Part shown: positions 11,928 to 38,315 of the stretch, one piece after another | How the letters are laid out: every line of letters begins with the position of its first letter | Position numbering within the stretch: position 1 is the first letter of the stretch | Assembly: GCA_031266435.1 (NCBI GenBank) | Contig: JAISAZ010000073.1 | Span: 1 to 40,862, forward strand | Source of the DNA: Accumulibacter sp. | GTDB taxonomy: Bacteria; Pseudomonadota; Gammaproteobacteria; Burkholderiales; Rhodocyclaceae | DNA length: 40,862 bases | Direction: 5' to 3' | Position numbers and translations under genes: made by a program | Notes under the pieces: model-generated | What the model was told of the DNA's origin: nothing | The model's database searches: none | Seen by the model: the letters and a program-made list of their open reading frames with translations, nothing else

Positions 11928-11938
11928 GCTCTTCCCTC

Positions 11939-13979: not shown

Positions 13980-13994
13980 TTCTTTTTCCTGCAA

Positions 13995-15194
13995 TCATGA
14001 CGATTTCCTTTCCGGTTCGGAGAACAAGGTTTCGAGCAGGGGCGAAAGGCCATTCCACGGCACGACGCGACCTCGTTCGCGCGATTGCGGTGTGTCGCCG
14101 CCATAGACGAGCCAGGGGTGAAGCGTTTGGCCGGGAAGGTTTTTTCGCCAATAATCCAGCCCCTTGAAAAAATCCGCCGCCACGGTTTCTCCCGCCTTGA
14201 CTTCGATTGCGGCGAAGGTATCCGGCGCCGTTGGCACGAGCGCGTCGATTTCGTGCCCGCTTTTGTCGCGCAGGAAAAAGAGGCGCGGCGGGATTCCGGC
14301 GTTGGCGTGTGCTTTGAGCAACTCCATCATCACCCAGTTTTCAAACAGCGCGCCGCGTTGCGGCAGACCCGCCGCGTAGTCGCGCGTTTTCGCGCCCAAG
14401 AGCCACGCCACGAGGCCGGTATCGCAAAAATAGAGTTTCGGCGTTTTGACGAAACGCTTGCCGATATTGGCAAACCACGGCCGCACAATAACGATGACAT
14501 GACTGGCTTCGAGGACGGAAAGCCAGCCATTGGCGGTCGGGCGCGAAATGCCGGCATCCGAGGCGAGCGCGTCGATGTTGAGTAATTGCCCCGCGCGTCC
14601 GGCGCACAGGACGACGAAACGCTGGAAGAGCGCGAGATTCTGGACCTTGAGAAGTTGGCGTACATCGCGTTCCAGGTAGGTGGCGACGTAGTTGGAAAAC
14701 CACGCGGCGGGGTCGATCTTTCTGCCGTAAAGACGCGGGAAAAGCCCCTTGAAGAGCAAGCTGTCCACGTCGGCGGGCGCGGCATCGACCGCCTGCAATT
14801 CAGCGAGCGAAAACGGCCACAGCCGCAGAAGAGCGATGCGCCCAGCCAGCGATTGGATGATCGATTCCATCATGCCGAATTGTTGCGACCCGGTGAGGAG
14901 GAATAAACCGGCGCGCCCATCCGCATCGACGATGCCCTGCAAATAAGAGAAAAGCGCCGGACAGCGCTGCACCTCATCGAGCGCCGCACCGTCGGGGAAT
15001 TGCGCCAAAAAACCGCGCGGGTCCTCGATCGCATAGGCGCGCTGATCCGGGTCTTCGAGCGAGACGTACGGACGAAAACCGGCGACGCGCTTCATCAGCG
15101 TCGTCTTGCCGGATTGACGCGGGCCGGTGAGCACCACGACGGGGAATTCGGTCAAGCACCGTTCGAGGACGGGGAGGATGCTTCGGGAAAACAT
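13995..15194 (-). CDS. AAA-family ATPase with DUF4143
   Basis: A 399-aa protein. The N-terminal ATPase domain has Walker A GPRQSGKTT (residues 24-32), Walker B-like ALDEVQRCP (near 71-79) and LTGSQQFGMM. The C-terminal DUF4143 domain ends with KSGHEIDALVP and AAIEVKAGE, a D...ExK arrangement like that of PD-(D/E)XK nuclease folds. Family members are common beside mobile and defence genes, but their role is not established. The frame extends 12 codons upstream to a TTG; I chose the ATG at 15194 because a good promoter overlaps that upstream part and would start transcription at or next to this ATG. It is convergent with the HigA gene and divergent from AbiEi. Confidence 0.8.
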   Translation of the reverse strand: MFSRSILPVLERCLTEFPVVVLTGPRQSGKTTLMKRVAGFRPYVSLEDPDQRAYAIEDPRGFLAQFPDGAALDEVQRCPALFSYLQGIVDADGRAGLFLLTGSQQFGMMESIIQSLAGRIALLRLWPFSLAELQAVDAAPADVDSLLFKGLFPRLYGRKIDPAAWFSNYVATYLERDVRQLLKVQNLALFQRFVVLCAGRAGQLLNIDALASDAGISRPTANGWLSVLEASHVIVIVRPWFANIGKRFVKTPKLYFCDTGLVAWLLGAKTRDYAAGLPQRGALFENWVMMELLKAHANAGIPPRLFFLRDKSGHEIDALVPTAPDTFAAIEVKAGETVAADFFKGLDYWRKNLPGQTLHPWLVYGGDTPQSRERGRVVPWNGLSPLLETLFSEPERKSS

Positions 15195-15342: not shown

Positions 15343-15464
15343 AAGTCGGGAAAAAAGAGTTTGGCGGGGCATTCCCGATTGTGTGTTGAGTTCCCGAATT
15401 TTTCGCTCCGTGGCTGTCCTTTATGTCAGAAACTCATGTATTATTTCTTACTGGAAAGGCGCCC

Positions 15465-16061
15465 ATGAACACACTACCCGAGACGATTCTTCGACATGCA
15501 CGTTCCCGCTCCGAGGGAGGTGTGTTGTCGCCCAAAGAATTCCTGCACTTGGGGAGCCGGTCAGCGGTAGATCAGGCGTTCTCGCGCTTGGCCAAGGTCG
15601 GCATGCTGTTGCGCGTGGCGCGCGGCGCGTACGCCGCCCCGATTCCCAGCCGTTTCGGTTCGCGCGCTCCCGCTCCCGGGAAGGTCGTCAAGGCGCTGGC
15701 CGAGAGAAGCGGCGAAATCGTCGTGCCGCACGGCGCCAGCGCGGCCAATGTCTTGGGCTTGACGCGGCAAGTACCCGTCCGCGAGGTTTATCTGACTTCC
15801 GGCCCCACCCGGAAGCTGAAGTTCGGAGGCTCGGAAGTGCTGGTGAAGCACGCGCCGCGCTGGATGCTGGCGTTGGGCGCGCGACCGGCTGGCGCGGCTG
15901 TGCGCGCACTGGCCTGGATCGGATCAACACACGCCGGCGAGTCGCTGGCGAACTTGCATCGCTCTCTCCCCCGTTCCGAATGGCAGGCGCTGGTCTCGGC
16001 GCGCGCCATGTTGCCCGCATGGATGGCGCAGGCCATCGGCGAGGAAGCCGCTCGTGACTGA
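15465..16061 (+). CDS. AbiEi-type antitoxin / transcriptional regulator
   Basis: A 198-aa protein of the AbiEi antitoxin group (type IV toxin-antitoxin). The N-terminus has a winged-helix region (ILRHARSRSEGGVLSPKEFLHLGSRSAVDQAFSRLAKVGMLLRVARGAYA), and the C-terminal domain has VVPHGASAANVLGLTRQVP and VYLTSGPTRKLKFGG. Known members bind operator repeats and counter the AbiEii nucleotidyltransferase. The ATG at 15465 was preferred over an in-frame ATG 42 bases upstream because GGAAAGG precedes it directly and the family N-terminus aligns here. Its stop overlaps the GTG start of AbiEii by eight bases. Confidence 0.85.
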   Translation: MNTLPETILRHARSRSEGGVLSPKEFLHLGSRSAVDQAFSRLAKVGMLLRVARGAYAAPIPSRFGSRAPAPGKVVKALAERSGEIVVPHGASAANVLGLTRQVPVREVYLTSGPTRKLKFGGSEVLVKHAPRWMLALGARPAGAAVRALAWIGSTHAGESLANLHRSLPRSEWQALVSARAMLPAWMAQAIGEEAARD

Positions 16062-17076
16062 ATACTTTTTCGATCTGAGCGAGAAGGATCAACGTGAAGT
16101 CCTGGAATACGGGCGTGCGAAAACCGGCCGTCCCGCCCACCTGCTCGAAAAGGACGTGTGGGTAGTATGGGTACTGCGCGCCCTGTTTGAATCGCAACTG
16201 TCGGTCGACCTGAGCTTCAAGGGCGGCACGTCGCTGTCGAAGGTTTACAAGGTCATCGACCGCTTTTCCGAAGATATCGACCTGACTTGCGATATACGCA
16301 AGCTGATACCGGACTTGATCGGCAAGGGAGGAGAATTTCCGGCAAGTCGCAGTCAGGCGAGCAAATGGACCCAAGCGGTACGGCACCGACTGCCGGACTG
16401 GATCGCGCAGAATGTGCAACCGGTGATTCAAGCGGTCTTGGCGCGCGAGCGTTTGAGTGCCCAGCTTGAACTTGGCGGACAAGAGAACGACAAGCTATTC
16501 CTGCACTACTCCGCCCTCACACGGGGCACAGGGTATGTGGCGCCTATCGTCACTCTGGAGTTCGGTGGTCGCGCCACCGGCGAACCGCATCGGGTGTTCC
16601 CGATGGCGTGTGACATCGCCGCACATTTCGTCGACGTGTCCTTCCCCTCCGCCTCACCGGTGGTTACAAGCATCGCGCGCACCTTTTGGGAGAAAGCCAC
16701 CGCTGCGCACGTGTTTTGTGCGCAGGGCCGCATCCACGGCGAACGTTACGCGCGACACTGGCACGATCTGGCCGCGATCGCCCGGAGTCCTAATTTCTCC
16801 GCCGTCATTTCCGACCGCGCAGTGGCAATTGCTGTCGCCCGCCACAAGTCCTGCTTTTTCATCGAAAAGAACGCCGACGGACAAGTCATCGACTACATGG
16901 CCGCGAGCACGGGGCATCTGAAAATCGTCCCTGACGGCGAAGCCAAAGCCACGCTCGCCGAGGACTACGCAGCCATGCTGGCTGACGAAGTCATGGTGGG
17001 CGATGCTTTATCTTTCGACGATCTCCTGGAAGCGTGTGCCGACCTCGAAGCCAAGGCAAACAAGGCGGTCGCGTAA
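16054..17076 (+). CDS. AbiEii/AbiGii-type nucleotidyltransferase toxin
   Basis: A 340-aa protein of the AbiEii/AbiGii family. The nucleotidyltransferase motif is intact: SFKGGTSLSKVYKVIDRFSEDIDLT near residues 53-75, giving GGTSLSK and the two-acid D-x-D. The conserved LLEKDVWVVWVL precedes it, and RTFWEKATAAH and RYARHWHDLAAI follow. Studied members transfer nucleotides to RNA targets, which arrests growth; they act in phage abortive infection or as mycobacterial toxins. It starts with GTG and overlaps the antitoxin gene by eight bases. The last gene of the repeat-bounded block. Confidence 0.88.
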   Translation: MTEYFFDLSEKDQREVLEYGRAKTGRPAHLLEKDVWVVWVLRALFESQLSVDLSFKGGTSLSKVYKVIDRFSEDIDLTCDIRKLIPDLIGKGGEFPASRSQASKWTQAVRHRLPDWIAQNVQPVIQAVLARERLSAQLELGGQENDKLFLHYSALTRGTGYVAPIVTLEFGGRATGEPHRVFPMACDIAAHFVDVSFPSASPVVTSIARTFWEKATAAHVFCAQGRIHGERYARHWHDLAAIARSPNFSAVISDRAVAIAVARHKSCFFIEKNADGQVIDYMAASTGHLKIVPDGEAKATLAEDYAAMLADEVMVGDALSFDDLLEACADLEAKANKAVA

Positions 17077-17199: not shown

Positions 17200-18297
<1,098 letters not shown>

Positions 18298-21106: not shown

Positions 21107-21207
21107 GGTTGGGCTGAGCGTAGCGATGCCCAACGAGAGGAGGAAATCCCCCCTGCGCGGCAATCGGCAATGCGTGATCTTGTAGGGGTACGGCGTGCCG
21201 TGCCCTA
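21107..21207 (+). repeat. 100-bp composite repeat, copy 1
   Basis: Starts with GGTTGGGCTGAGCGTAGCGA and ends in the GGCGTGCCGTGCCC palindrome. Clearly homologous to 21264-21367. Confidence 0.65.
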
Positions 21208-21263
21208 TCGGCGGTATAGGTTGGGCTGAACGGAGAGAAGCCCAACGTTCCGTATGCGTCATA

Positions 21264-21367
21264 TGTTGGGCTGAGCACGGCTACTCCCAACGAGAGGAAG
21301 GAATTTTCCCCCTGCGCGGCAATCGGCGACGCGTGATCTCGTAGGGACACGGCGTGCCGTGCCCCTA
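21264..21367 (+). repeat. 100-bp composite repeat, copy 2
   Basis: Direct copy of 21107-21207 with scattered differences; ends in GGCGTGCCGTGCCCCTAC. Confidence 0.65.
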
Positions 21368-21463
21368 CAGGGATCAGGGTTCATTCCATTTCCAATTCAT
21401 CCTTGGTCGACTGCGCCTTGGGGCACGTAATTCCATATTCAGGAGGTGCGTATTCAGGAAGCA

Positions 21464-22440
21464 ATGCGTTTGAAAGAGCGACTCGCCCTCGCGGCAAGCG
21501 GGGAAACGTCGCCGCTACAATTTGAAAGGCTGGCGCTGGACAAGAACGCGAAAGTGCGCGAGGGCGTGGCGGGGAACCCCAAAGCGCCGCCGGAGATTTT
21601 GGCGGCATTGGCGAGAGACAGAAACGCGGATGTGCGCTGGGGCGTGGCTTGGAACGCGGCTACGCCGCCGGATGTGTTGGCAGTCCTTGCGAAGGACGAG
21701 AGCATGATGGTACGCCAGCGTCTGGCGAGGAGGCCGAATACGCCGCCGAGGATTTTGGCGGCGCTGGCGAAAGACGAGAGCGCGGTGGTACGCCGGGGCG
21801 TGGCGGGGAATTCGAATATGCCGCGACAAGTTCTGGTAGCGCTGGCAGGAGATGAGAACGCGGAAGTGCGTCAGTTTCTGGCAAGAAATCACAAGACGCC
21901 GCGACAAGTTTTGGCGGCACTGGTGAGAGACAGAAACGCAGACGTGCGCCGGGGTCTGGCGAAAAATTCGAATACGCCGCCGAAGATTCTGGCGATACTG
22001 GCGAAGGGGAGAAACGCGGAGGTACGCCTAAGCGTGGCGGGGAATTCGAATACGCCGCCGGAAATTTTGGCGGCACTGGCGGAAGACAGAAACGCGGTTG
22101 TGCGTAGCACGGTGGCGGTGAATTCGACGACGCTGCGAAAGTTTTGGCGTCGCTGGCGGAGGATGAGAACGTGGGTAGACACCTGGATCTGGCGAGTAAC
22201 ACAAATATGCCGCCAGATGTTTTTGCGTCGCTAGCGAAGGACATAAATGCGGATGTATTTGGCGCGTCGAGCGATTTTTATTCAGACAGGCCCAAGGACA
22301 TCGACTTCGAAAAATACGACGACGAGAGGTTCTGTATCGGAGATGGGGAGCGATCCCATTCGAGTTTCCATGCCACCCGCTGGTTCGCCGATATTCCGGG
22401 GGGAAATGAAGCTCCCGGAAGATCAGGAGCAAAACAAATC
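21464..22440 (+). pseudogene. LRV/HEAT-like repeat protein, frameshifted
   Basis: About nine to ten repeats of 24 residues (72 bp) with the pattern LAxDxNAxVRxxVAxNxxTPPxIL, the leucine-rich-repeat-variant type of helical solenoid. The frame breaks near 22141: the current frame runs on as FWRRWRRMRTW to a stop at 22234. One missing G after AAG would restore KVLASLAEDEN and another repeat, TNMPPDVFASLAKDINADV. The restored frame has no stop before the sirtuin start at 22441 and is in phase with it. The start is uncertain: AGGAGG at 21441-21446 precedes GTG (21446), ATT (21452) and ATG (21464) in frame. Function unknown, probably a protein-binding scaffold. The break may be a real mutation or a sequence error. 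Confidence 0.65.
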
Positions 22441-23208
22441 ATGACAGACAAGCAAAAACCCGAAACCCTGCCTCCCGAACTGCAAGCAATCCTCGCGCGG
22501 CCCTTCAAGCGCATCGTCGTATTCAGCGGCGCGGGGATGTCTGCCGACAGCGGCATACCGACCTTCCGTTCCGGTGAAAATGGCCTCTGGAACGCCTACG
22601 ACCCCAGCGAGCTTGCGACGCCGAACGCTTGGCGGCGCGACAAGGAGACCGTCTGGGCTTGGTACGAATGGCGACGCGGCATCGTCATGGCGGCGCAGCC
22701 ACATCCCGGACACTTGGCCGTCGCGGAATTGCAACGCCGCTGCGATGCCAAAATCATCACTCAGAACGTGGACGACCTCCACGAGCGCGCTGGCGCGACG
22801 GATGTATTGCATCTGCACGGCAGCCTCTTCGCCGCGCGCTGTTCCGCCTGCAGCAAGCCCTACGCCCTCGGCGAGCCGCCCCAGGAGCAACAGCGCCAGA
22901 TCACGCCGCCGCGATGCCCGCGATGCCAGGGGTACATTCGACCGGGCGTCGTCTGGTTCGGCGAAAACCTCGACACGACCACCGTAAAGTTGGCGCGACA
23001 AGCGATCGCCAACTGCGATTTTCTGCTGATCGTCGGGACTTCCGGCGTCGTTTATCCGGCGGCCGGGATGGTCAATGGAGCGCCCTCTTCCGCTACGATC
23101 ATCGAAATCAATCCGCAGCCGTACGAAACATCGAGCCGTATCGCGTTTCAGTGGCAGACGACGGCGGCAAGGGGGTTGCCGGAAGTTGTACGAAATATTT
23201 TGATTTAG
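22441..23208 (+). CDS. Sirtuin, NAD-dependent protein deacylase
   Basis: A 255-aa single-domain Sir2 protein that should remove acyl groups from lysines at the expense of NAD. It has GAGMSADSGIPTFR (residues 30-43), TQNVDDLH (107-114), catalytic His in HLHGS (126), a zinc site with Cys 134, 137, 159 and 162, and VGTSGVVYPAAG. WYEWRR (75-78) gives the Tyr-x-x-Arg pair known in CobB and SIRT5 for succinyl and other acidic acyl groups. AGGAG lies about 12 bases before the ATG. It ends 17 bases before the next start, so it probably leads the HKN-PLD/helicase operon, although its base composition is richer in GC. With the upstream frameshift repaired it would be fused to LRV repeats. Confidence 0.9.
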   Translation: MTDKQKPETLPPELQAILARPFKRIVVFSGAGMSADSGIPTFRSGENGLWNAYDPSELATPNAWRRDKETVWAWYEWRRGIVMAAQPHPGHLAVAELQRRCDAKIITQNVDDLHERAGATDVLHLHGSLFAARCSACSKPYALGEPPQEQQRQITPPRCPRCQGYIRPGVVWFGENLDTTTVKLARQAIANCDFLLIVGTSGVVYPAAGMVNGAPSSATIIEINPQPYETSSRIAFQWQTTAARGLPEVVRNILI

Positions 23209-23225
23209 GGAAGGAGGGAGTCATC

Positions 23226-24509
23226 TTGCCGGAAAATTCATGGGGTTTGCTGGGGCCGGAATTTTTGTCTGATTCACGCCGTAACCGCTCGCTTGGGCTG
23301 GCTGCCACGGTACGGGCATTCAATGATCTTGCGGTGCCCGGCCTTGGCGGTGTTTGGTACGGCAAACAATTGTTGTTTGCAATGCTTGGTATTGCTGTCG
23401 CCGAAGAAGCTCGTAAAGGGGTAAAAGTTTGGAATATTGAGGTGGCTAACGCTATTGAAGCACTGTCATGCTGGCGGGCTTTTATAAAGAATAAATGGGA
23501 AAGAGACGCACGTTTACGCGGCAACAACAAGTTGAAAGACAGGAACGAAAGCGACTTCAGTCAATTCGATAAAGTCAAAAAGCCTCGTTTCTATGTCACG
23601 AACCCTATGCGGATGAGAACCGTCCAGGCTTTGCCTGCTCTTGGCTTGGTAACGAAGGATAGTGTACGTTTCAACGCTTTTCGCTGCTCGGATATCGGAC
23701 AAGAATTCATTGAGGCGGCATCTGCATGCAAAGGCGAATCAGTCAAAAACTACTTGGTGGGTTGGGTACGTGGCAAAAAGGTTCTGAAATCCCAACGTCT
23801 TGATGATGTACTCTCGCCGCTCGAACCGCTTTCCCATGAGGCGCAAACACTACTGTGCGGATTAATAGATAGAGACAAGAAACGTGCAAATGCGCGGGCT
23901 TGGGTTGAACAACTCAGCAAAGAAGGCACACGTCGGCAGGATTGGGGAGACAAGCCGCCGAAGCCTATCCAGCCCAGTCACTGGAAGGACATGGAGGCGG
24001 GTGCGCGGTTTTTCATGGCACGTGACGCGGCAATAGCCGTTCTGGACACGCTGGAAAGACATATGGGCAACAAGAGCCAAAGTCCAATGTATTCATTGAT
24101 CACTACGACTCCCAACGAGCTGCTTGATCCGTTGAAAAAACTAAAGGATGCCGCGCAGGACTATCTGTCCCTGAAATACGACAACGATGACACCCGCGAT
24201 GCCAACAAATTTTGCGAAGAGTGTATTCAGAAAATAGATTCTGATGTTCTACGTTCTCTGGTGAAGCGGGATGTGCACGTTCTGTGCCTGGAGAGTGACA
24301 AAGTCAAACCCGGCCCGGCGTTCCGTGGCGACGGCAAAACGCCTGTAAATGACGAAAATGATGAATCCCCCGCCTCCGATTCGGAAATGATCCCGCTTCC
24401 GAAAGGAATTTCCTCTCGTGTGCTCAACCTTTATCGGCTCAATCTCGACTTGAAAGGCAAACTCGATCAATGGTTGAAACTCTCTGCGAAAGAACAAAGC
24501 GATGAATAA
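23226..24509 (+). CDS. Unrecognised 427-aa protein of the HKN-PLD/helicase operon
   Basis: I do not recognise this protein with confidence. It begins at a TTG with an excellent site, AAGGAGG, eight bases upstream. The N-terminal part (LGPEFLSDSRRNRSLGLAAT, VPGLGGVWYGKQLLFAMLG, NIEVANAIEALSCWRAF) is mostly helical. The middle carries a basic, possibly winged-helix stretch (RMRTVQALPALGLVTKDSVR), and the C-terminus is charged. There is no signal peptide and no enzyme motif I can name. It recalls uncharacterised families that accompany PLD and helicase genes (DUF6361 is one to test), but this is an impression. It overlaps the next gene by eight bases, so it is a stable partner of that unit. Base composition is AT-richer than the flanking genes. 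Confidence 0.75.
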   Translation: MPENSWGLLGPEFLSDSRRNRSLGLAATVRAFNDLAVPGLGGVWYGKQLLFAMLGIAVAEEARKGVKVWNIEVANAIEALSCWRAFIKNKWERDARLRGNNKLKDRNESDFSQFDKVKKPRFYVTNPMRMRTVQALPALGLVTKDSVRFNAFRCSDIGQEFIEAASACKGESVKNYLVGWVRGKKVLKSQRLDDVLSPLEPLSHEAQTLLCGLIDRDKKRANARAWVEQLSKEGTRRQDWGDKPPKPIQPSHWKDMEAGARFFMARDAAIAVLDTLERHMGNKSQSPMYSLITTTPNELLDPLKKLKDAAQDYLSLKYDNDDTRDANKFCEECIQKIDSDVLRSLVKRDVHVLCLESDKVKPGPAFRGDGKTPVNDENDESPASDSEMIPLPKGISSRVLNLYRLNLDLKGKLDQWLKLSAKEQSDE

Positions 24510-26514
24510 TGACAACGAGAATTGGCCTTCGCTGGCGCAGCACTTCGATGCGCCAGACGGTTACACAGGACACTTCGGCTGGCTGTGCGGCTATTCAGCG
24601 GATGCCACCTTTCTTGATGATGCTGTCGAGCGTTTCACTGGTTTGACGCAAACATTGCGCGCGAATCAAGGCCGAATTGCTCTGGCGGTTTTGCTTGACC
24701 GAGGTCCGCAGATATCATTGATCGATGCTCCTGGAGTGGCGCATTTTCCGATCAAATATAGGAAGGACAAGCTTTTCCGGCTCCTGCACGCCAAGGTTGC
24801 CTTGCTTGGCTTCAGGCGGATGAATGACGATATTCAGACGGAAAACAATTCATGGCGTCTGAGGCTGATCGTTTCCACCGGCAACTGGACGAGACAGACC
24901 TTGGAAAAGAGTCTGGATTTGGCGTGGTGCGTAGACATATCGAGTGAGGAACTGTCGAGTAAAACGCTTGACGAGAATACGCGGAGTGTCTGTGCCGACA
25001 TCGAGGCGGCGAACGACTTCTTGCAATGGACGGCGAAGTTATTTGATACAAGATTGCTCGATGCCACGGTTAACGGAAAATTCAGTGAGACGAAAAATGC
25101 GAAAGATACCTTCCATGAATGGGTAGCCGCTTGTACCAAGAAGCCAAAAGGCCATGCAAGGTTTTTCGATAACAGGAAAAAATCTTTACTGTCCCAACTG
25201 CCGGCCAAGATAAAAGGCTGTGGACGGGACTACAAGCGAAACTACCTGGCAATGGGGTCCGGCTTTTATGAGTCCAGCAAGGACGGCGAACCCAAAGTAC
25301 CATTGAAAGTCATTGAGGCTTTGAAAAAAGAGGCTCTATTGACTCAAAATCCAGATGTAAACATCTACGTCAACTCAAACGCTTGTCAAGCCATTGCCGG
25401 TTCGGTCGAGTTTTTAAGAAAACAGATGATTAAAGTTCGCCCCGCGAATCAGTCCCAATCCGTTTTCGGGAAAAACGACCAACGCTCGCTTCATGCCAAA
25501 TTTTTGTTCAGTGCTAGAGCCTATAGGAATTCATGCTTATGCAATGGCGCGTGGGTCTATTTGGGTTCAGGCAATCTAACCGCTCCGGGTTTCGTCAACA
25601 AGATGAGTGAAAGCGAGGGAAACCTCGAGGCAGGCGTTGTGTTTGCCCCAGAGGGCTTGCTGTGGGAAGGCGGAAAAAACGACCTGAAAAAGGTAGTGAC
25701 GAACCTGTTGCCGATCCAGTACGATAAAGAAATTGATGACGAAACCTCACTGGAACAGGGTCCCGACATGGAATTGCGTGATGAGGATATCTATGTTGCC
25801 CCACCCATAACATGGCTGATCTGGAATGACAGAGACAAGGAATTGCAGGCGCTGGATGCAGGCGCCGGAAAAAATCCAAACGAAATTCTAAACGATTTTG
25901 CCTTGCTTGACTCCAAAAACCATGAATGCCAAAAAACCAAAACAGGGTTTCAGTGGTTGGAACAGCAGCCACGACTAGCCAAATGTCGCTGGTCGGTGGA
26001 TGGCGTACAGTTCGAGAGCATGTTGCCGGTTATTGATCAATTCGGCCGGATTGCTGCGGCCGAGCTAAAACCCATTAATTTCATCACGGACGCTTTGTTG
26101 CAACTCGAATACTTTCCTCAGCCATCGAATGATGATGATGTTGACGAGTACGGAAACATCGGGAACGGCCAGAGCAAAGATACTGCTTTACGGACAGGCA
26201 GTTATCCGATCCAGCGAATGATGGAACTGATTGAAAGTATTGCTGACAGACAAACGCGAATCGCCAAACAGGACTGGCCGCTGTGGTGCAATCGCCTTGA
26301 ACAGACCATGAGCTTAGCCAAGGACAGCGGTGAAACCAAGATGTTTATCGAAATGAAATTGAATCCGCTCAGTCCATTGTGGTGCACACCGTTTCGCCCG
26401 GATTTTGCCGAAACTTGCGCCTCCAAAGAAGGAGCCATGTACGAAGCCGCGTTGAAGCGCATCGAGGAAGCTTGGCAATGTAATCGATTGCGGAAAATTG
26501 GAGACAAGCAATGA
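24502..26514 (+). CDS. Tdp1-like HKN phospholipase-D superfamily protein
   Basis: A 670-aa protein with two PLD-superfamily half-sites. The first is LLHAKVALLGF near residue 96 followed by IVSTGNW near 121-128. The second is SLHAKFLFSA near residue 329 followed by YLGSGNLTAPGF near 354-365. Both have His-x-Lys followed by a distant Asn but lack the Asp of HKD enzymes; this HKN pattern is that of tyrosyl-DNA phosphodiesterase Tdp1, whose half-sites have the same context (STGNW/TSNL, GSGNL/TSANL). A DNA 3'-adduct or protein-DNA crosslink substrate is therefore a fair inference, not shown. The C-terminal 280 residues are unassigned. It starts within the last codons of the upstream gene and its TGA overlaps the helicase ATG (ATGA), so all three are translationally coupled. 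Confidence 0.8.
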   Translation: MNNDNENWPSLAQHFDAPDGYTGHFGWLCGYSADATFLDDAVERFTGLTQTLRANQGRIALAVLLDRGPQISLIDAPGVAHFPIKYRKDKLFRLLHAKVALLGFRRMNDDIQTENNSWRLRLIVSTGNWTRQTLEKSLDLAWCVDISSEELSSKTLDENTRSVCADIEAANDFLQWTAKLFDTRLLDATVNGKFSETKNAKDTFHEWVAACTKKPKGHARFFDNRKKSLLSQLPAKIKGCGRDYKRNYLAMGSGFYESSKDGEPKVPLKVIEALKKEALLTQNPDVNIYVNSNACQAIAGSVEFLRKQMIKVRPANQSQSVFGKNDQRSLHAKFLFSARAYRNSCLCNGAWVYLGSGNLTAPGFVNKMSESEGNLEAGVVFAPEGLLWEGGKNDLKKVVTNLLPIQYDKEIDDETSLEQGPDMELRDEDIYVAPPITWLIWNDRDKELQALDAGAGKNPNEILNDFALLDSKNHECQKTKTGFQWLEQQPRLAKCRWSVDGVQFESMLPVIDQFGRIAAAELKPINFITDALLQLEYFPQPSNDDDVDEYGNIGNGQSKDTALRTGSYPIQRMMELIESIADRQTRIAKQDWPLWCNRLEQTMSLAKDSGETKMFIEMKLNPLSPLWCTPFRPDFAETCASKEGAMYEAALKRIEEAWQCNRLRKIGDKQ

Positions 26515-29228
26515 AGCGCAAATTTGAAGGTTGGGAGAAAGTGGCCAGTAATTTGTTGGAGCTTGCGCGTGAAAAAACCATAGAACTCAACAAAGGGCAG
26601 CAAGCGAGTATAGAAGCCATCGCCGTAGGTCTACCGAATAACGGCGTGATCATCGCGGACGAAGTCGGCATGGGAAAGACCCGGATCGCGGCTACGACTG
26701 CCAAAGCCGTCCTCAACGCGGGTGGCAGGGTAGCGATACTCGTACCGCCGGGTTTGGGTTATCAATGGGGAGACGAATTACGGCAAATCGGTGTTGACGC
26801 GCCACCAATCCTTCGCAGTCTATGGCAGTATTTTAGCGCATGGGAATCGGACGACAAATCGCAACAATGTCCTTGGTTCAATGAATCCATTATTTTGATC
26901 TCCCATGCTTTTACAAATTGGCGGCTGGGCGAGAAAAGCACCCCATGGCGTTGGACATTGTTGCCGGAACTATACGCAAGACTGCGAAAAGAATTATCCG
27001 GACGACATTTGCCGCGTGGATACCACGACAACGAGAAACTTGGTGACGAGTGGGTTAAAAATACTGCCATTAGCATTACCGAATTCGTTGAAGCATTGCC
27101 GAAACGTCATCCAGCCAGAAAATTGGCTGAGGAATTGACAAAAAAAGAATTGTGGCCTTGGGCATTGAAGGCCGACGAGTACGAACGCAACGCCGAATTG
27201 CGCTCTTGGCTTGAGCAAGCCGTTGGGTTCGGCTTGGGCGTATTTGACTTGGTCATCATTGATGAGGCGCACAAGAGCCGTGGGCAAGATAGCGGCCTGT
27301 ATCGCTTAGTCGAACAAGTTGTTTTGCAGGTTGATACCACGCGCCGCATGGCGGTAACGGCGACTCCCATTGAGCTAGGTGAAAAGCAATGGAAACAGAT
27401 ATTGCAACGTATAAAAGTAAATGAAGATTCTTTATCCGGGAAAATTAAGGCCTATGCCGATGCGGTGCGCAAAGTACGACAAAATCCAAGTAATAAAGAA
27501 TATTTAGAATATTTCAAAATAACGTCAAAGCAATTCGAAGAAGCTTTGTCGCCGTATTTGTTGCGCAGAGATAAGCGTGAAGATGATGCCATAAAGAAAT
27601 TTTGTAAATACACACGCGAACCATATCATGCCTATCGACATGAAGAAGAAATTTCGATTGAAGCGAAAAGTCTTCCGCCGAAATGGAAGCAGGCCATGTG
27701 CGCCGCCGAAGTCCTGTCCTTCGTTACCCGAAAAATCGATGCCTCAGTCCTTAAACGTCTGCGCTTGACGCTCGGCAACGGCCACGGTCTCGCTGCATTA
27801 ATCGATCAAACTCAGCGCGGCGATGAGGACAAAAAACAGGATGAGTATGACGAAAAGCAAAAAGAAGAAAATGATAAACAATCCGAGAAGCAGAAAAATA
27901 CGGACGACACTCTGTCTGAAGTTGGAAAAGAAAAGCGTACACAGCGGGCACAGTGGTGGACAGAAGTGATGACCCAGCCGTTTCCAACAGAACAAGGAGA
28001 CGCGGCATTGTACGACCATCCAGCCATTCTGGCCGCCGTGGAGAAGATCGAAAAAATCTGCCGTAAAGAAAAGGTACTCGTTTTTGGTCGATTTATACGC
28101 CCGCTGAGAGCTTTGGTCGATTTACTCAACGCCAGAGAAATGCTACTGTGCCTCAAATCTGGGCGACCTTGGCCGCAGTCGAAAGTGCATGATAAAAGCG
28201 AGCAGTCAGCCATCAAAGCGGCGCATCACCAGCTATGGTCAAAAGTGGCTACTGTCGACCTAGATAATCTGGATGAGCTACTTGATAAGCAATACAAAAA
28301 ACTTGAACGGAAACGCAGAAAATTCCGAGAAAAACTTCTCCTTAATATTGACAAAGGCTTCCAGTATCTTGGTTCTCAATGCGCAAAAGGCCTATTCGAT
28401 GCCTTCAAGCGCGAAGTCGAAGAAGGAGAGGACAAATCCTTGGTATGGGTCGATCGGGCGATGTGGGAACTGATTGATCCCGAAAAAGCAAAGCCAGAGG
28501 ATTTTGCACGGGCATTCATTGATTTGATCAAAGCCGCGAGCGATCGTCCTGATGATATTGATGCCGATGATGATACCCCGATGGAGAATTTCGATGCTGA
28601 CGCCCGTTGGAACGACCTAGCCGAGATATTTGAAAGAGAATACGGGTCGTCGCGGGAAGGTGGATTTGCTCGCCTGATGAACGGTGATACAAAACACAAT
28701 ACCAGACGATTTTTGCAATTGGCCTTCAATCGCCGACATGGGTATCCAAAAGTTCTGGTCGCACAATCCTTGGTTGGCCGTGAGGGACTCAATCTTCACA
28801 AGGCTTGCCGAACGATTATACTATTGCATCCCGAATGGAATCCAGGCGTTGTAGAACAACAGATTGGCCGAGTGGATCGGCTTGGCAGTTTCTGGGAAGA
28901 CATGCTGGACAAGGCCATTGAACAAAAGTTGGATGTTCCAAAAATAAACATTCACCCGATCGTCTTTAAGGGTACTTACGATGAAGAGAACTGGCGAGTT
29001 CTCCGCGAGCGTTGGGATGATTTGCGCGCTCAGTTACATGGATTGGTCATGTCACCACGAACAGCAGAGAATTGGCCGAAGGATTTGATCGAAGAAATAA
29101 ATTCTTCAGCACCGAATTTCTCGTCTGATACTTCCGCTCGCACGCGACACATCTTGACGCAAAGCTCTGCCATACTACGTCCCATCGAGGCACACCGGAG
29201 GGAAAAATCCTCATCGATTCAAGCGTAA
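26511..29228 (+). CDS. SNF2/RapA-like SF2 helicase
   Basis: A 905-aa ATP-dependent DNA translocase. Motif I is ADEVGMGKT (residues 49-57), motif II IIDEAHKS (near 250), motif III AVTATP (near 279). The second RecA lobe has LVGREGLNLHKACRTIILLHP (near 754) and motif VI QQIGRVDRLG (near 783). GREGLN and the paired WNPGVVEQQIGRVDR are typical of the SNF2/RapA group. Between the lobes is a long charged insertion (near 440-480, rich in Lys, Glu, Asp, Gln). All catalytic motifs are intact. Its ATG overlaps the stop of the Tdp1-like gene, which argues that the two act together, perhaps as translocase and DNA-end processing subunits. Confidence 0.88.
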   Translation: MKRKFEGWEKVASNLLELAREKTIELNKGQQASIEAIAVGLPNNGVIIADEVGMGKTRIAATTAKAVLNAGGRVAILVPPGLGYQWGDELRQIGVDAPPILRSLWQYFSAWESDDKSQQCPWFNESIILISHAFTNWRLGEKSTPWRWTLLPELYARLRKELSGRHLPRGYHDNEKLGDEWVKNTAISITEFVEALPKRHPARKLAEELTKKELWPWALKADEYERNAELRSWLEQAVGFGLGVFDLVIIDEAHKSRGQDSGLYRLVEQVVLQVDTTRRMAVTATPIELGEKQWKQILQRIKVNEDSLSGKIKAYADAVRKVRQNPSNKEYLEYFKITSKQFEEALSPYLLRRDKREDDAIKKFCKYTREPYHAYRHEEEISIEAKSLPPKWKQAMCAAEVLSFVTRKIDASVLKRLRLTLGNGHGLAALIDQTQRGDEDKKQDEYDEKQKEENDKQSEKQKNTDDTLSEVGKEKRTQRAQWWTEVMTQPFPTEQGDAALYDHPAILAAVEKIEKICRKEKVLVFGRFIRPLRALVDLLNAREMLLCLKSGRPWPQSKVHDKSEQSAIKAAHHQLWSKVATVDLDNLDELLDKQYKKLERKRRKFREKLLLNIDKGFQYLGSQCAKGLFDAFKREVEEGEDKSLVWVDRAMWELIDPEKAKPEDFARAFIDLIKAASDRPDDIDADDDTPMENFDADARWNDLAEIFEREYGSSREGGFARLMNGDTKHNTRRFLQLAFNRRHGYPKVLVAQSLVGREGLNLHKACRTIILLHPEWNPGVVEQQIGRVDRLGSFWEDMLDKAIEQKLDVPKINIHPIVFKGTYDEENWRVLRERWDDLRAQLHGLVMSPRTAENWPKDLIEEINSSAPNFSSDTSARTRHILTQSSAILRPIEAHRREKSSSIQA
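29136..29176 (+). repeat. 41-nt boundary repeat, copy 1
   Basis: It begins GCTCGCACGCGACACATCTT and ends GCCATACT. It aligns without gaps to 30633-30673 and 33631-33671. This copy lies inside the last codons of the helicase gene, about 100 bases before the next start. Confidence 0.65.
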
Positions 29229-29274
29229 AGAAGTTTCGCCCCTCTCGTGATGGTCTCGCTTATTGGAGAAAGCT

Positions 29275-29696
29275 ATGCCATTTGTGCTTGAACACATTGA
29301 TGCGATAGCCAGGAAACTCGGACGCGGCGTTTTGTTCGTGGATTTCCCAGCTTGCCACCATGATATTTTCATGCGATCGGAGCGTGTCGATTACGAAAAA
29401 TACAAGCCCCGCAAGACGATCATTCGATGGCTGGACAAAAATGGGATCGGCTGGAGACCTTGTGCCGGATTCGCCGACGAAATTCTATGTCATCGTATGC
29501 CGGAGAAATCTATATCGACGTTCCGTTTGACGAAAACGACCCAACCTACAAAATGGTCGATGGCTTTCTTGCACACGACGACATGACGCCCAAGATCGAA
29601 GGATCTATTTTTTTCCATTTGCCGCTTGAAGTGGCGATGCAAAACAGGCACCACGATGAGCCAGGGTTTTGGGATAAATGGGCGGAAAACTGGTGA
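29275..29696 (+). pseudogene. Small uncharacterised gene with single-base frameshift
   Basis: Two overlapping reading frames together give one protein-like sequence of about 140 aa. The first part (MPFVLEHIDAIARKLGRGVLFVDF ... GIGWRPCAGFADE, summarised here) reads from the ATG at 29275, with GGAGAAAGC as ribosome binding site. The second part (SSYAGEIYIDVPFDEND to FWDKWAENW) lies one frame away. Adding one A to the AAA run at 29480-29482 joins them as FADENSMSSYAG. Without it the first frame ends at 29586 with no similarity to the second. I do not know the family; a mixed strand-helix cytoplasmic protein is likely. It precedes the SLOG-domain gene by about 30 bases. Either a true pseudogene or a homopolymer sequencing error. 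Confidence 0.6.
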
Positions 29697-29727
29697 TCCA
29701 TAAGTTCGCGCCTTGCATGGAAAGAAA

Positions 29728-30654
29728 ATGATGAATCCTCCTGAAAACGCGCCTTTCATCCCCATCCTCACCGTGATGGTCGACTACGGCGACGCCCCCT
29801 TCCTTTGGTTGCTCAATAGTCCCGACGAAATCGGCGTCGGGCTGAATGTCGGTAACAGCGCTTATTTGGATGAGTCGATTCCGATATCCAATGCGCTTCG
29901 GAAAAAAATCACGAAATGGGCGATCGCGTTCGATCGAACGGCGTTTTACTCCGAGAACTTCAACGCCGACAGCTGGGATTGGCTCACCTTCCACGCGCGT
30001 GGCCTGCGCCTCTCGCATCGCTTGAAGAAAGAAGTCGGTGACGCGTACCGCGTCGTGTACGACAAGCCCTGCGAGGATCCCAACCATCGTATCGACGAAC
30101 GCGTGGAAATTCTCGCCACCGGCGCCCTCCTCCCCTTGCCTCCGTTCGACGACCAGCTTCCGGCGGGCTTCTGCCAGCACGTCGTTTCCGGTGGACAGAC
30201 CGGTGCGGATCGCGCCGCACTGGATTTCGCCATGAAGCACGGCTATACGCACGGCGGTTGGGCGCCGCACAAGCGCATAGCAGAAGACGGCGTCATCCCC
30301 CGAAAATACCAATTGACCGAGATGGACGAAGGCGGCTACCGGCAACGCACCCGCCGCAACGTGATAGACAGCGACGCGACCTTGATCGTCAATCTGGGCG
30401 ATCTCGACGGCGGCTCGCTGGCGACCCAAGTCTATGCCGGGAAATCGGGCAAGCCCTGCCTTGTCGTACCGGTCGATTCCGGCGTCTCCGAAGAGACGGT
30501 CGCCCAGATCATCGCATGGCTGCGGCAGCACAAGGTGAAAACGCTGAACATCGCCGGCCCACGCGAAAGCAAGCGACCGGGAATCCACCGTTCGACTTTT
30601 GAACTCTTGAAAGCTGTCGATGCCAGCGTCAAGCTCGCGCGCGACACATCTTGA
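29728..30654 (+). CDS. SLOG/YpsA-like (putative molybdenum-carrier family) protein with N-terminal extension
   Basis: A 308-aa protein in two halves. Residues 1-140 are an unrecognised domain (ILTVMVDYGDAPFLWLLNS, WDWLTFHARGLRLSHRLKKE). Residues about 150-308 match the family annotated as putative molybdenum carriers, a branch of the SLOG/YpsA nucleotide-binding fold: VVSGGQTGADRAALDFA, GGWAPHKRIAEDGVIP, YRQRTRRNVIDSDATLIV and TLNIAGPRES. SLOG domains in defence systems sense or make nucleotide messengers; the carrier name comes from distant similarity, and the ligand here is not known. The start is one of two adjacent ATGs after GGAAAGAAA. The stop TGA lies within the -35 box of the next promoter. 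Confidence 0.75.
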   Translation: MMNPPENAPFIPILTVMVDYGDAPFLWLLNSPDEIGVGLNVGNSAYLDESIPISNALRKKITKWAIAFDRTAFYSENFNADSWDWLTFHARGLRLSHRLKKEVGDAYRVVYDKPCEDPNHRIDERVEILATGALLPLPPFDDQLPAGFCQHVVSGGQTGADRAALDFAMKHGYTHGGWAPHKRIAEDGVIPRKYQLTEMDEGGYRQRTRRNVIDSDATLIVNLGDLDGGSLATQVYAGKSGKPCLVVPVDSGVSEETVAQIIAWLRQHKVKTLNIAGPRESKRPGIHRSTFELLKAVDASVKLARDTS

Positions 30655-30673
30655 CGCTCCGTGCCGCCATACT
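30633..30673 (+). repeat. 41-nt boundary repeat, copy 2
   Basis: Differs from copy 1 at one of the first 25 positions. It overlaps the end of the SLOG gene and includes the promoter boxes of the MoxR gene. Confidence 0.65.
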
Positions 30674-30678
30674 ATGAT
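30651..30678 (+). promoter_or_regulatory. Promoter of the moxR-VWA pair
   Basis: TTGACG (30651-30656), a 16-base spacer and TATGAT (30673-30678), 20 bases before the ATG at 30699. A ribosome binding site GAAAGGA follows. GCGTCAAG / CTTGACGC forms an 8-bp inverted repeat that ends at the -35 box, a possible operator. Confidence 0.6.
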
Positions 30679-30698
30679 GCACGTGAAAGGAAAAAGCA

Positions 30699-31754
30699 AT
30701 GAAAATCCCTGTTACGGTCAATCCGGCACAGTTGCTCGATGTGCTTGTCAATGTCGCCACGATTCGCCCTGTTTTCATCTGGGGTGCGCCGGGGATCGGA
30801 AAATCGTCCATTGTGGAAAAGTTCGCGGCGGAATTCGACCTGCCTTGCGTCTCGCTCCTGGGCAGCCAGCTTGCGCCGGAGGACATCATCGGCGTGCCGC
30901 AGATCGTTGATGGGAAGAGCGTGTTTTGCCCGCCCCGCGCCATCGCGCGGGAAGAAGCGTATTGCCTGTTTCTCGACGAACTGAACGCGTGTTCGCAGGA
31001 AGTGCAAAAAGCATTCTACAGCCTGATTCATGACCGGCGCATCGGAGAGTACCGGCTGCCGGAAGGCTCGATCGTCATCGGCGCGGGCAATCGCGCGCAG
31101 GACAACGCCATTGTCAAGCCAATGTCGTCTGCGCTCATCAACCGCATGTTCCACGTCGAACTCGTCGCCTCGCACCGCGCATGGCTGGAGTGGGCCGGGG
31201 AAAACGACATTCACCCCTGGATTCTCGAATACATCGGCCTGCGCCCCGACCATCTGTGGCGGCAACCGCCCAAGACCGAGGAGCCGTTTTCCACGCCACG
31301 CTCGTGGCATATGCTCTCGGACGCGCTGAAAAGCCACGGCGAGGAAATTTCCGATACGCAACTCGAAATTCTGACCTTCGGCTGCCTTTCGCCGCATCAC
31401 GCCACGCAGTTTCGCGCCTTCGCAAAGCAGATTCGGAACCGCTACGCGCTTTCTGCGATCATCGACGGCGAACAGAAATGGCCGCAGGACCCCAAAGACC
31501 GCGACGCGCTCTATTTCCTTGCGCAGAGCTTTCGTGCACAACTCGTCAAGGAGCTGCCTGCGGACAAGAACCGGCTCTCGCCCAGCACGCTCGCTTTTTC
31601 GCTGCGCGCCAAAACGATGATGAAGGACCTTGCCGGCATCAGCCTGGAAATCGCGCAGATGGCCGTTGCCCCCGACGAGGGCGGCAAGCTGCCGGACTGG
31701 TTTATGGTCGAGATCGTACGCGACTTGCCGCGCCTGGCCGAAAAGAAAAAATGA
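30699..31754 (+). CDS. MoxR-type AAA+ ATPase
   Basis: A 351-aa AAA+ ATPase. Walker A is GAPGIGKSS (near residues 28-36), Walker B CLFLDELNA (near 88-96), and sensor-type GAGNRAQDNA lies near 128. It belongs to the MoxR branch, whose members act as chaperone-like remodelers together with von Willebrand A proteins, often inserting metals or switching a partner complex on. The VWA/metallopeptidase gene begins inside the stop codon (ATGA), the usual MoxR-VWA pairing. The gene has its own promoter overlapping the end of the SLOG gene, so expression may be separate from the helicase operon. Intact. Confidence 0.85.
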   Translation: MKIPVTVNPAQLLDVLVNVATIRPVFIWGAPGIGKSSIVEKFAAEFDLPCVSLLGSQLAPEDIIGVPQIVDGKSVFCPPRAIAREEAYCLFLDELNACSQEVQKAFYSLIHDRRIGEYRLPEGSIVIGAGNRAQDNAIVKPMSSALINRMFHVELVASHRAWLEWAGENDIHPWILEYIGLRPDHLWRQPPKTEEPFSTPRSWHMLSDALKSHGEEISDTQLEILTFGCLSPHHATQFRAFAKQIRNRYALSAIIDGEQKWPQDPKDRDALYFLAQSFRAQLVKELPADKNRLSPSTLAFSLRAKTMMKDLAGISLEIAQMAVAPDEGGKLPDWFMVEIVRDLPRLAEKKK

Positions 31755-33586
31755 GCGGGTCGCAAGGCAGGAAAAAGGAAGACCCGGCGCGGAAAAACTT
31801 TGACGCCGGTGTCGGAATGGTCAAGGATCACCCCGTTTTCGCGCCGCTCCTGCGTGCGGCTTCGCTTTATCGCGGAGACAAACCGTATTTTCGCCCGAAA
31901 CATTACCGGGAATCCGCGCACGGCCTCGTTTATGTGACGGCTGGCGGTCATCTCTACTGCCATTCCACCCGCCGCGCCGAACCCGCCGCTTGGGCGCGCG
32001 CGATCGCGCATTGTCTCCTGCATCTGGGCATGGGGCATTTCGTCGTCCACGAGCACCCCCAGTTGTGGAACCTCGCCTGCGATCTCGTCGTGGAAAAATT
32101 CCTCGGCGATCTGCGCTTCGCCACGCCGATTGCCGACATTCCCCTCCCCGGCGGCATCAACGACGAGGAAAGGCTCTACCGACGGCTTGTCGAACAGGGC
32201 ATCCGGGAAGTGACCGGCACGAGCGCGGCGCTCTTCGGCACTGCCGGAGACAATGAATCCGACATGCTGTTTCCGGCGGAAGGAGAAAAAGGCGGCTACC
32301 ATCCCCACAACTGGGCGCGGCTCTTCGCGGCGGGGGTCGAGCAAGCCGTGCGCAACGCGGTCAACGTGGCGGCGGGCTACACACCCTTGTCTCCATCGGG
32401 CGAAGCTCTCGACTCCGCCGCCGCGCGCGCGAAGGCGTGGTTCATTTCCTCCTACCCTCTTTTGGGCGCGATCGCGGCGAGTTTTCGCCTCATCGAAGAC
32501 CCGCTCGTCTGTCAGCGCATGGAGATTCACGTCGCGGCCGTCTCGGCCATGCTTCAGGAAATCTACATCAATCCGGCGGCAGGCCTTTCTTCAGAAGAAA
32601 TGCGTTTCGTCATGGCGCACGAATTCCTCCACGTCGCGCTCCGGCACGATGTCCGCCACGTCTGGCGCGACGCCTACCTCTGGAATGTCGCCTGCGACTT
32701 CGTCATCAACGGCTGGCTCACCGAGATGCGCGTCGGCGAGCGTCCTGCCAGCGCACTTTATGATCCGCAATTCCAAGGGGCGAGCGCCGAGGCGGTGTAT
32801 GACCGCATCGTCACCGACATGCGCCGCTACCGGAAACTCGCCACGCTGCGCGGCGTGGAACTCGGCGACATTCTGCCCGGTGAAGGCGCCCGCGCGCAGG
32901 ACGGCGTCGACCTCGACGCCTTTTACCGCCGCGCCATCGGGCAGGGTTTGAGCTACCACGAGACGCAGGGACGGGGCTATCTGCCGGAAGGTCTGGTCGA
33001 GGAAATCCGCGCCCTGAGCCATCCGCCGATCCCGTGGGACGTGGAACTCGCGCGATGGTTCGACGAAATGTTCTCGCCGCTGGAAAAACGCCGCTCGTAC
33101 GCGCGCGCCAGCCGACGGCAATCCGCAACGCCGGACATTCCCCGTCCGGCGTGGGTGCTGGATCAGGCGCATCTCGACGGTCGCACCTTCGGCGTGTTGC
33201 TCGACACGTCCGGGTCGATGGAACGCGCGCTCCTCGCCGGCGCCTTGGGCGCCATCGCAAGTTACAGCGCCGCGCGCGACGTTTATGCCGCCCGCGTCGT
33301 TTTCTGCGACGCCGAGGCCTACGACCAAGGCTATATGAAGCCGGAAGACATCGCCGGCACGGTGAAAGTCCGGGGTCGGGGCGGCACGGTCTTGCAAGCG
33401 GGCATCGACTGCCTCGAAAAAGCCACGGATTTCCCGAAGGAAGCGCCGCTGCTCGTCATCACCGACGGCTGGTGCGAAAATCACCTCGTCCTGCATGGCC
33501 GCGAACACGCCTTCCTGATCCCCGAAGGCGCAAGACTCCCCTTTGTGCCGCAGGGAAAGGTATTCAGGATGGCGGCGCCCGACTAA
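31751..33586 (+). CDS. DUF2201-type metallopeptidase-like / VWA protein
   Basis: A 611-aa protein partnered with the MoxR ATPase. The central region carries a zinc-protease-type HExxH motif in FVMAHEFLHVALRHD near residue 289, followed by WNVACDFVINGWL, the layout of the putative metallopeptidase domain of DUF2201. The C-terminal part is VWA-like with a MIDAS motif, LDTSGSM near residue 484, and LLVITDGW near 568. The N-terminal 270 residues contain a second, degenerate copy of the same fold: AIAHCLLHLGMGHFVVHE and WNLACDLVVEKFL, lacking a clean HExxH. It is translated by stop/start overlap from moxR. Cytoplasmic, role unknown; similar pairs are taken to be metal-dependent remodelling machines. 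Confidence 0.82.
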   Translation: MSGSQGRKKEDPARKNFDAGVGMVKDHPVFAPLLRAASLYRGDKPYFRPKHYRESAHGLVYVTAGGHLYCHSTRRAEPAAWARAIAHCLLHLGMGHFVVHEHPQLWNLACDLVVEKFLGDLRFATPIADIPLPGGINDEERLYRRLVEQGIREVTGTSAALFGTAGDNESDMLFPAEGEKGGYHPHNWARLFAAGVEQAVRNAVNVAAGYTPLSPSGEALDSAAARAKAWFISSYPLLGAIAASFRLIEDPLVCQRMEIHVAAVSAMLQEIYINPAAGLSSEEMRFVMAHEFLHVALRHDVRHVWRDAYLWNVACDFVINGWLTEMRVGERPASALYDPQFQGASAEAVYDRIVTDMRRYRKLATLRGVELGDILPGEGARAQDGVDLDAFYRRAIGQGLSYHETQGRGYLPEGLVEEIRALSHPPIPWDVELARWFDEMFSPLEKRRSYARASRRQSATPDIPRPAWVLDQAHLDGRTFGVLLDTSGSMERALLAGALGAIASYSAARDVYAARVVFCDAEAYDQGYMKPEDIAGTVKVRGRGGTVLQAGIDCLEKATDFPKEAPLLVITDGWCENHLVLHGREHAFLIPEGARLPFVPQGKVFRMAAPD

Positions 33587-33705: not shown

Positions 33706-33861
33706 ATGAAACACCGGATTGCCACGACAGCGCGGGGTAAATCGGAACGACGGGGCGGCGAAATGCCCGCGCCTGTCATTCACCCCCGCGCCTCATTCCT
33801 TTTCCAGTTCATTCATGCAGAGAAGACGAACCGCAGACAGTACTGTAGTACGGCAAGGTGA
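33706..33861 (+). CDS. Possible 51-aa ORF, unrecognised
   Basis: A short basic protein (MKHRIATTARGKSERRGGEM at the N-terminus), 34 bases after the third boundary repeat, with AGGAGA nine bases upstream. Its spacing from the repeat mirrors that of moxR from copy 2. No domain is seen. It may be the remains of a lost module or a chance ORF. Confidence 0.3.
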   Translation: MKHRIATTARGKSERRGGEMPAPVIHPRASFLFQFIHAEKTNRRQYCSTAR

Positions 33862-33889
33862 GTCGACCAGGGATGGACTGGAAATGGAA

Positions 33890-35326
<1,437 letters not shown>

Positions 35327-38139: not shown

Positions 38140-38263
38140 CAGGAGACAGGAAACATATGTCAGGAGACAGAAAAGTTAGCGGCGGCTTCGCCTCCGAAGA
38201 TAAAGCAACCAAACACCGATCGCTTTTCATCTGTTTCCTGTCTCCTGTTTCCTGTTTCCTGAT
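38140..38263. repeat. Heptamer-armed repeat element, copy 4 (complete)
   Basis: The left arm has heptamers CAGGAGA and CAGGAAA, the right arm CTGTTTC and CTGTCTC, their complements. The core hairpin GGCGGCTTCGCCTCC and AAAGCAACCAAACACCGATC match copies 1 and 3. Compared with copy 1 the arm sequence has changed on both sides in step, while the core has not. It lies directly upstream of ilvE. Confidence 0.75.
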
Positions 38264-38315
38264 GAGAAATCGGCTAAAATTCTGGTTTCACTTCGGGAAA
38301 ATTGGAGAAAAAACC

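Follow-up and report, generated by a model that had tools for sequence, protein, structure and literature searches.

A horizontally transferred gene trio for an unassigned protein, an HKN-type PLD protein and an SNF2-type motor: a candidate mobile defence complex of the Azaca kind

The window, by which we mean the whole 40,862-nucleotide stretch of Accumulibacter sp. DNA analysed here (contig JAISAZ010000073.1), contains three consecutive genes on one strand, which are referred to below as the trio.

23226..24509, + strand: gene for protein A (P0001), 427 aa, family not recognised (open reading frame and translation)
24502..26514, + strand: gene for protein B (P0002), 670 aa, PLD-type with two HxK...N half-sites
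26511..29228, + strand: gene for protein C (P0003), 905 aa, SNF2-type SF2 ATPase

The frames for proteins A and B overlap by 8 bases (24502-24509) and those for proteins B and C by 4 bases (26511-26514), and both the coordinates and the overlaps given in an earlier sequence-only reading of this DNA are exact. The gene for protein A begins with a TTG codon and has a GGAGGG-type ribosome site ahead of it. The GC content of the trio (0.47-0.52 at 23-29 kb) is lower than that at 7-23 kb (0.56-0.65) or 30-40 kb (0.54-0.66), and its GC3 is 0.49-0.56, as compared to 0.68-0.79 in eight neighbouring genes. The earlier description of the unit as AT-richer than its neighbours is correct for the immediate ones; however, the window's initial 4 kb is equally AT-rich (GC 0.50-0.52).

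Protein A was examined by structure prediction and profile searches. Its AlphaFold2 model (pLDDT 90.2) is mostly helical with two beta hairpins and has no convincing structural match. PADLOC and Pfam contain no family that it matches at E up to 1, its single NCBIfam row (E 0.15) is at chance level, and no sequence relative was found in the PDB. A FokI-like protein A is a lead at most, since the three weak VIA matches to a FokI-type DNA-recognition fold come without Foldseek support or a PDB sequence relative. The sequence-only reading had pointed to DUF6361 as a family to check. This hint was apt in that DUF6361 is ZacA of the Azaca system. P0001 nevertheless bears no resemblance to it: neither Pfam nor PADLOC gives a match at E up to 1, and hhalign against 12 ZacA proteins gives a probability of 0.3.

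Protein B carries two half-sites, each followed by an acidic residue, and none of the positions below varies among the 42 aligned relatives.

24787..24795, + strand: H96-x-K98, first half-site
24883..24885, + strand: N128, first half-site
24916..24918, + strand: D139, acidic residue after the first half-site
25492..25500, + strand: H331-x-K333, second half-site
25573..25575, + strand: N358 of GSGN, second half-site
25627..25629, + strand: E376, acidic residue after the second half-site

The two H-x-K...N half-sites had been recognised from the letters alone, at positions that were off by up to two. HKD enzymes have an Asp at K+5, which is absent from both half-sites in all 42 relatives; the assignment as HKN, rather than HKD with a shifted Asp, is therefore upheld. 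P0002 scores 24.3 bits against Pfam PLDc_2, slightly below the cut-off of 27, and its model has a pLDDT of 88.8. No PLD-type sequence match to it was found in the PDB.

Protein C has the complete set of SF2 motifs previously ascribed to the third gene, and the motif residues are invariant or nearly so among aligned relatives.

26655..26681, + strand: Walker A region ADEVGMGKT, residues 49-57
27261..27272, + strand: Walker B DEAH, residues 251-254
28857..28880, + strand: motif VI QQIGRVDR, residues 783-790

The distribution of the trio was examined with a helicase profile search of genome contigs, which gave 146 confirmed loci, the best 80 of which were used. Among these 80, the PLD and A genes are both present in all 65 loci that have at least 4 kb of sequence ahead of the helicase frame, so the genes are not rarely found together and the trio is one unit, as had been proposed. 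The frames mostly touch or overlap; with starts chosen by script and one fused frame (L006) among the 66 rows, both junctions overlap by 4 bases in 19, and the window's 8 + 4 arrangement is seen in 5. Proteins A, B, and C are conserved jointly among relatives at about 30-59% identity. Protein scans seeded with P0002 alone gave no match in viral contigs or genome contigs.

Comparison with a relative, G434, which has 34 bp in place of the trio (L150), delimits a moved segment.

23203..29132, no strand assigned: horizontally moved block of 5.93 kb, comprising the trio minus the last 31 helicase codons and the stop

The flanks align with L150 on both sides, positions 22418-23202 with 9139-8360 (89% identity) and positions 29133-33581 with 8325-3872 (95%). 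From 29133 on, protein C (31 residues and the stop) is read from DNA also present in G434. No target-site duplication is apparent by eye in the printed junctions. The trio has no match in the other 27 genus genomes searched and thus occurs in 1 of 28, its own included. The empty site, the GC3 shift, and the absence from these genomes fit the horizontal transfer suggested earlier, and the trio moved as one block.

A second module, of the helicase-nuclease or AAA-nuclease type, is found close to the trio in 22 of 51 loci. A PD-(D/E)XK+UvrD module is present in 13 of the 51, a count of loci and not of independent events because its carriers are mostly close Rhodobacterales-type relatives; AAA with WYL or DUF2779 is present in 9. 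Some plasmid copies adjoin defence-type genes, either brxL or an ADP-ribosylglycohydrolase or HEPN gene, which we note as individual cases.

These data lead us to favour, with somewhat better than even confidence, a reading of the trio as a mobile, Azaca-like defence complex of three subunits that degrades DNA. As judged from the sequence features, the SNF2 ATPase, protein C, would move along DNA, and the HKN-type protein B would cut phosphodiester bonds via a covalent histidine intermediate. Protein A may be the recogniser or adaptor that brings proteins B and C to foreign or abnormal DNA. We thus infer complex formation, nuclease activity, an anti-phage function, and this role for protein A. 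Because the core has no methyltransferase, self and non-self are probably told apart by the structure, ends, or replication state of the DNA. This absence may be locus-dependent, since one Azaca locus adjoins a methyltransferase gene.

Instead of protecting the cell from phages, the trio could benefit the plasmid or island that carries it, for instance by destroying competitor DNA. It occurs on 7 plasmid records, 4 of which are typed conjugative, and its UvrD and PD-(D/E)XK partners recall AddAB. However, other copies are found on contigs as long as several megabases, and the window copy stands alone between genes common to G434, making this explanation rather unlikely. The sequence-only reading had proposed a mobile adduct-repair or anti-phage system, with HKN as the mark of Tdp1-like repair. 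Mobility is borne out and an anti-phage role is plausible; the repair assignment fares worse. In a repair system, protein B would be a Tdp1-like phosphodiesterase for 3' adducts, and protein C would strip or deliver the blocked end. Tdp1 has two HxK...N half-sites without the HKD Asp, a pattern common to protein B in 42 of 42 relatives; protein C is an SNF2/RapA-type motor; and the PLD protein of a similar trio, L114, matches Pfam Tyr-DNA_phospho below threshold (E 0.0087; 15.4 bits, with a cut-off of 22). The step from HKN to Tdp1-like repair is not supported, however, because ZacB, from the anti-phage system Azaca, shares the pattern and P0002 has no match to the Tdp1 family PF06087 at E up to 1, to which may be added its lack of a PLD-type sequence match in the PDB. 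The patchy, mobile distribution also fits defence better, and we regard adduct repair as unlikely. That three functionally unconnected genes lie together by chance is scarcely credible given co-occurrence in 65 of 65 loci, transfer as one block, and joint conservation.

No named system in PADLOC 2023, Pfam, or NCBIfam corresponds exactly to the trio, a match that would have counted against the earlier reading; the trio may be named elsewhere. A literature search, mainly PMC-based, found no mention of DUF6361 and no occurrence of PDC-M27 in the papers listed. In the portions of the sources considered, Azaca is named in passing (PMC12278908) and appears as a table row with a PLD-like domain (PMC10952713). 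The corresponding portions of PMC12458937 and PMC12839542 describe related helicase systems, with the trio not among them, and those of all four give no mechanism for Azaca.

Azaca has the trio's gene order (unknown, PLD, helicase) on one strand and the same protein classes, with sizes of 391-602-1044 aa (L111) as compared to 427-670-905. ZacB has an HKN pattern like that of protein B, with the Asp missing from the first site in all 12 cases and from the second in 11 of the 12. The ZacB and trio PLD profiles are distantly related, aligning with an E of 3.3e-7 (prob 93), whereas the control, one cardiolipin synthase, gives 0.048 (prob 1.1). The Azaca UvrD is about 29% identical to the trio-associated UvrD over 555 residues. 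Family membership is another matter: the gene order is shared, but none of the three proteins qualifies as ZacA, ZacB, or ZacC. P0002 scores 29.8 bits against the ZacB model, on which full-length matches score 390-556, and P0003 scores 29.9 bits against the ZacC model, as compared to 1135.8 for the ZacC of L111. The PADLOC ZacB match of P0002 (E 6.8e-8) was rejected as evidence of membership because that model has hits at E up to 0.001 in 43 genomes out of 299 but near full length in only 3, with other PLD proteins reaching 54.6 bits. The window's genome is absent from the ZacB model results at E 0.001. Searched with hmmsearch at E up to 10 against 21 loci, including Azaca and PDC-M27, the trio's A and PLD profiles matched only the family's own L116. 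The likeness between the trio and Azaca may reflect convergent assembly.

The PADLOC candidate PDC-M27 also has the order unknown protein, PLD, SNF2 helicase (474-674-887 aa in L122). Its helicase matches the trio helicase profile with an E of 1.7e-11, its PLD protein matches the trio PLD less well (E 1e-3, prob 21), and its A protein is unrelated to protein A (hhalign prob 0.1). The trio does not belong to it, as proteins A and B have no PADLOC match to its families at E up to 1 and protein C matches in pieces with 54.2 bits. The L114 trio (434-686-943 aa), near a DrmD-like helicase in genome G224, again has the same order and classes. Its PLD protein matches the trio PLD with an E of 8.4e-7 over 46 columns; its A protein has no PADLOC or Pfam match, and neither the A nor the PLD profile of the trio matches this locus. 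Its helicase gives the best score outside the family among the 21 loci searched with the trio helicase profile (128 bits), as compared to 70-80 for PDC-M27C, 62 for a DrmD, and 24-38 for ZacC. RapA and ZacC match this profile equally well (E 7.8e-9 and 1.9e-7, respectively). DrmD of DISARM and RapA share the SNF2-type motor of protein C, but the NCBIfam DrmD score of 81.2 bits is far below the equivalog cut-off of 610, and Drm genes, DrmA and DrmB included, are absent among the ten neighbouring window ORFs scanned, so the exclusion of DISARM stands. Two groupings emerge from a helicase tree, that of ZacC with DrmD and RapA (61%) and that of the L114 helicase with PDC-M27C (75%); the tree does not resolve the deep branching or establish a common origin of the trios.

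The accessory modules recur in the catalogued systems. Of 13 Azaca loci, four (L131-L134; L132 judged from ZacB) carry PD-(D/E)XK+UvrD upstream of ZacB, and AAA+DUF2779+WYL is found in 1 of 3 PDC-M27 loci, its WYL and AAA proteins being 60% and 43% identical, respectively, to trio neighbours in Pantoea. The sharing of these modules connects two systems that are listed apart and suggests that the UvrD/PD-(D/E)XK or Cas4-like enzymes are part of the defence, so that a joint mechanism can be tested. It is conceivable, at slightly less than an even chance, that Azaca, PDC-M27, the L114 trio, and the window trio form one superfamily of modular defence systems. Its members would combine a core of HKN-type PLD nuclease and SNF2 motor with a rapidly evolving recognition protein in the first position, and exchangeable PD-(D/E)XK+UvrD or AAA+Cas4-like DUF2779+WYL modules would feed it DNA ends. 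The window unit would then be an unnamed branch that moved as a bare core; with its 5.93-kb block and three genes only, it offers a minimal case for core sufficiency. On the favoured reading, the trio adds an unnamed, widespread, mobile branch to the PLD-plus-SNF2 anti-phage systems.

The trio consists of three open frames:

23226-24509, protein A (P0001, 427 aa), of a family without a match
24502-26514, PLD-type protein B (P0002, 670 aa)
26511-29228, SNF2-type SF2 ATPase/helicase C (P0003, 905 aa)

These frames match the positions given by the sequence-only reading and overlap by 8 and 4 bases, and a good ribosome site precedes the trio. That reading had also described complete SF2 motifs in the helicase and a PLD protein with HKN half-sites, in which the aspartate of the usual HKD motif is missing and an asparagine is present. 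Both descriptions hold. P0003 has intact SNF2 motifs, and P0002 contains H96-x-K98...N128 followed by D139 in its first half-site and H331-x-K333...N358 followed by E376 in its second. When P0002 is aligned with 41 relatives, taken from 60 complete loci and thinned at 72% identity, none of these eight residues varies, and in all 42 sequences both sites lack the HKD aspartate.

A helicase profile scan of the genome collection gave 146 confirmed loci, of which the best 80 were fetched. In all 65 testable loci among these, defined by 4 kb or more of locus sequence before the helicase frame begins, the PLD and A genes precede the helicase gene on the same strand; the A gene is split in a few. The other 15 loci start near a contig end, and the trio is visible in several of them. 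All seven plasmids recovered by tblastn with P0002 match all three proteins; in L006 and L008 a frame is fused or split. The nearest relative is that of Ferrovum myxofaciens (identity of 53% for A, 57% for B, and 59% for C). The trio is a real and widespread unit. Because the A gene is broken across several reading frames in L043, L068, L073, and L088 (all three genes in L068), these copies may reflect decay or misassembly.

The PLD gene occurs in 1 of 28 genus genomes (some incomplete), the window's own. Among 398 genomes of the phylum, two were positive in a profile search, one of them again the window's own. The relative genome G434 has flanks 89-95% identical on both sides and 34 bp where the window has 23203-29132. 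The left junction lies immediately ahead of the stop codon of a SIR2 gene. The right junction lies within the helicase gene, beyond the family's last invariant helicase residues, and the last 31 residues are encoded by DNA also present in G434. The composition shift noted earlier was confirmed, with GC3 of 0.49-0.56 in the three genes versus 0.68-0.79 in eight neighbours. Loss of the trio from G434, rather than gain by the window, retains a small probability; insertion is likelier because of this composition. The trio is a mobile unit.

Short window stretches match G434 repeatedly (its locus L150, about 9130-9511 and 17839-17940, 80-90%) and are probably a dispersed intergenic repeat family. 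The positions of these stretches and of two other features of the window are as follows:

6397-6500, 8368-8413, 21172-21377, 33795-33890, and 38176-38264, the short stretches that match G434 (38-104 bases)
15423-17076, AbiE toxin-antitoxin pair (PADLOC; AbiEi 208 bits, AbiEii 310 bits), in a stretch common to G434
29713-33586, cpYpsA SLOG-domain protein (matches in 3 of 40 relatives searched, its own included), then an AAA_5 ATPase, then a DUF2201 metallopeptidase/VWA protein

Accessory modules were surveyed in 51 of the 80 loci, those with complete calls for both the A and the helicase gene and 5.4 kb or more of sequence ahead of the A gene. PD-(D/E)XK and UvrD genes are found in 13, directly upstream in 12, although many of the 13 are close kin and the count does not equal independent gains. 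AAA with WYL or DUF2779 is found in 9 (one member directly upstream in 7), other partial module matches in 6, and none in 23. Neither accessory module is present in the window's moved block. The AAA (IetA/TRIP13-like), DUF2779 (Cas4-like), and WYL set recurs beside different trios (L137, 1-4575; L012, 1177-5664) and may be a separate defence module.

PLD enzymes need no metal and cleave phosphodiesters via a phospho-histidine; SNF2 proteins are translocases on double-stranded DNA. Any mechanism proposed from the sequences is an inference: in the simplest joint role, DNA would be cut where A marks it or C encounters it. A core without a methyltransferase, with optional UvrD/PD-(D/E)XK or Cas4-like partners, suggests recognition of ends or structures.

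The same gene order is found in the anti-phage system Azaca (ZacA/DUF6361, ZacB/PLD, ZacC/helicase), in the PADLOC candidate system PDC-M27, and in a trio of genome G224 that is in no filed system (L114, 3267-9470; 434, 686, and 943 aa). A full-length DrmD-like helicase (928 bits; 10951-14052) lies two genes upstream of the latter. Near-full-length matches to the ZacB model identified Azaca loci in 3 of 299 genomes, and others are on plasmids; an AbiE pair directly adjoins one in Mesorhizobium (L126). Of 13 Azaca loci, four (L131-L134) have PD-(D/E)XK and UvrD upstream of ZacB, and a fifth (L130) has them in divergent orientation, the UvrD being ~29% identical to that of the trio loci. The AAA/DUF2779/WYL set is upstream in one of three PDC-M27 loci (WYL 60% and AAA 43% identical to the trio-locus genes).

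In PADLOC, P0002 matches ZacB (E 6.8e-8) and one chance-level model, and P0003 matches many SNF2 families, DrmD at the top and ZacC included. The trio belongs to none of the filed systems tested. In profile comparison its PLD protein is linked to ZacB with E 3.3e-7 and, over 46 columns, to the G224 PLD protein with E 8.4e-7. The link to PDC-M27B is weak (E 1e-3), and one cardiolipin synthase, used as control, gave E 0.048; plain hmmsearch detected none of the three links. The helicase is related to PDC-M27C (E 1.7e-11) and ZacC (E 1.9e-7), but this likeness is generic, as RapA reaches 7.8e-9. A helicase tree did not unite the three, and no relation was detectable between A and its positional counterparts. 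ZacB, too, is missing the aspartate at the first site in 12 of 12 sequences and at the second in 11 of 12. The trio is constructed like Azaca and PDC-M27, and there is a fair chance that all of these form one superfamily.
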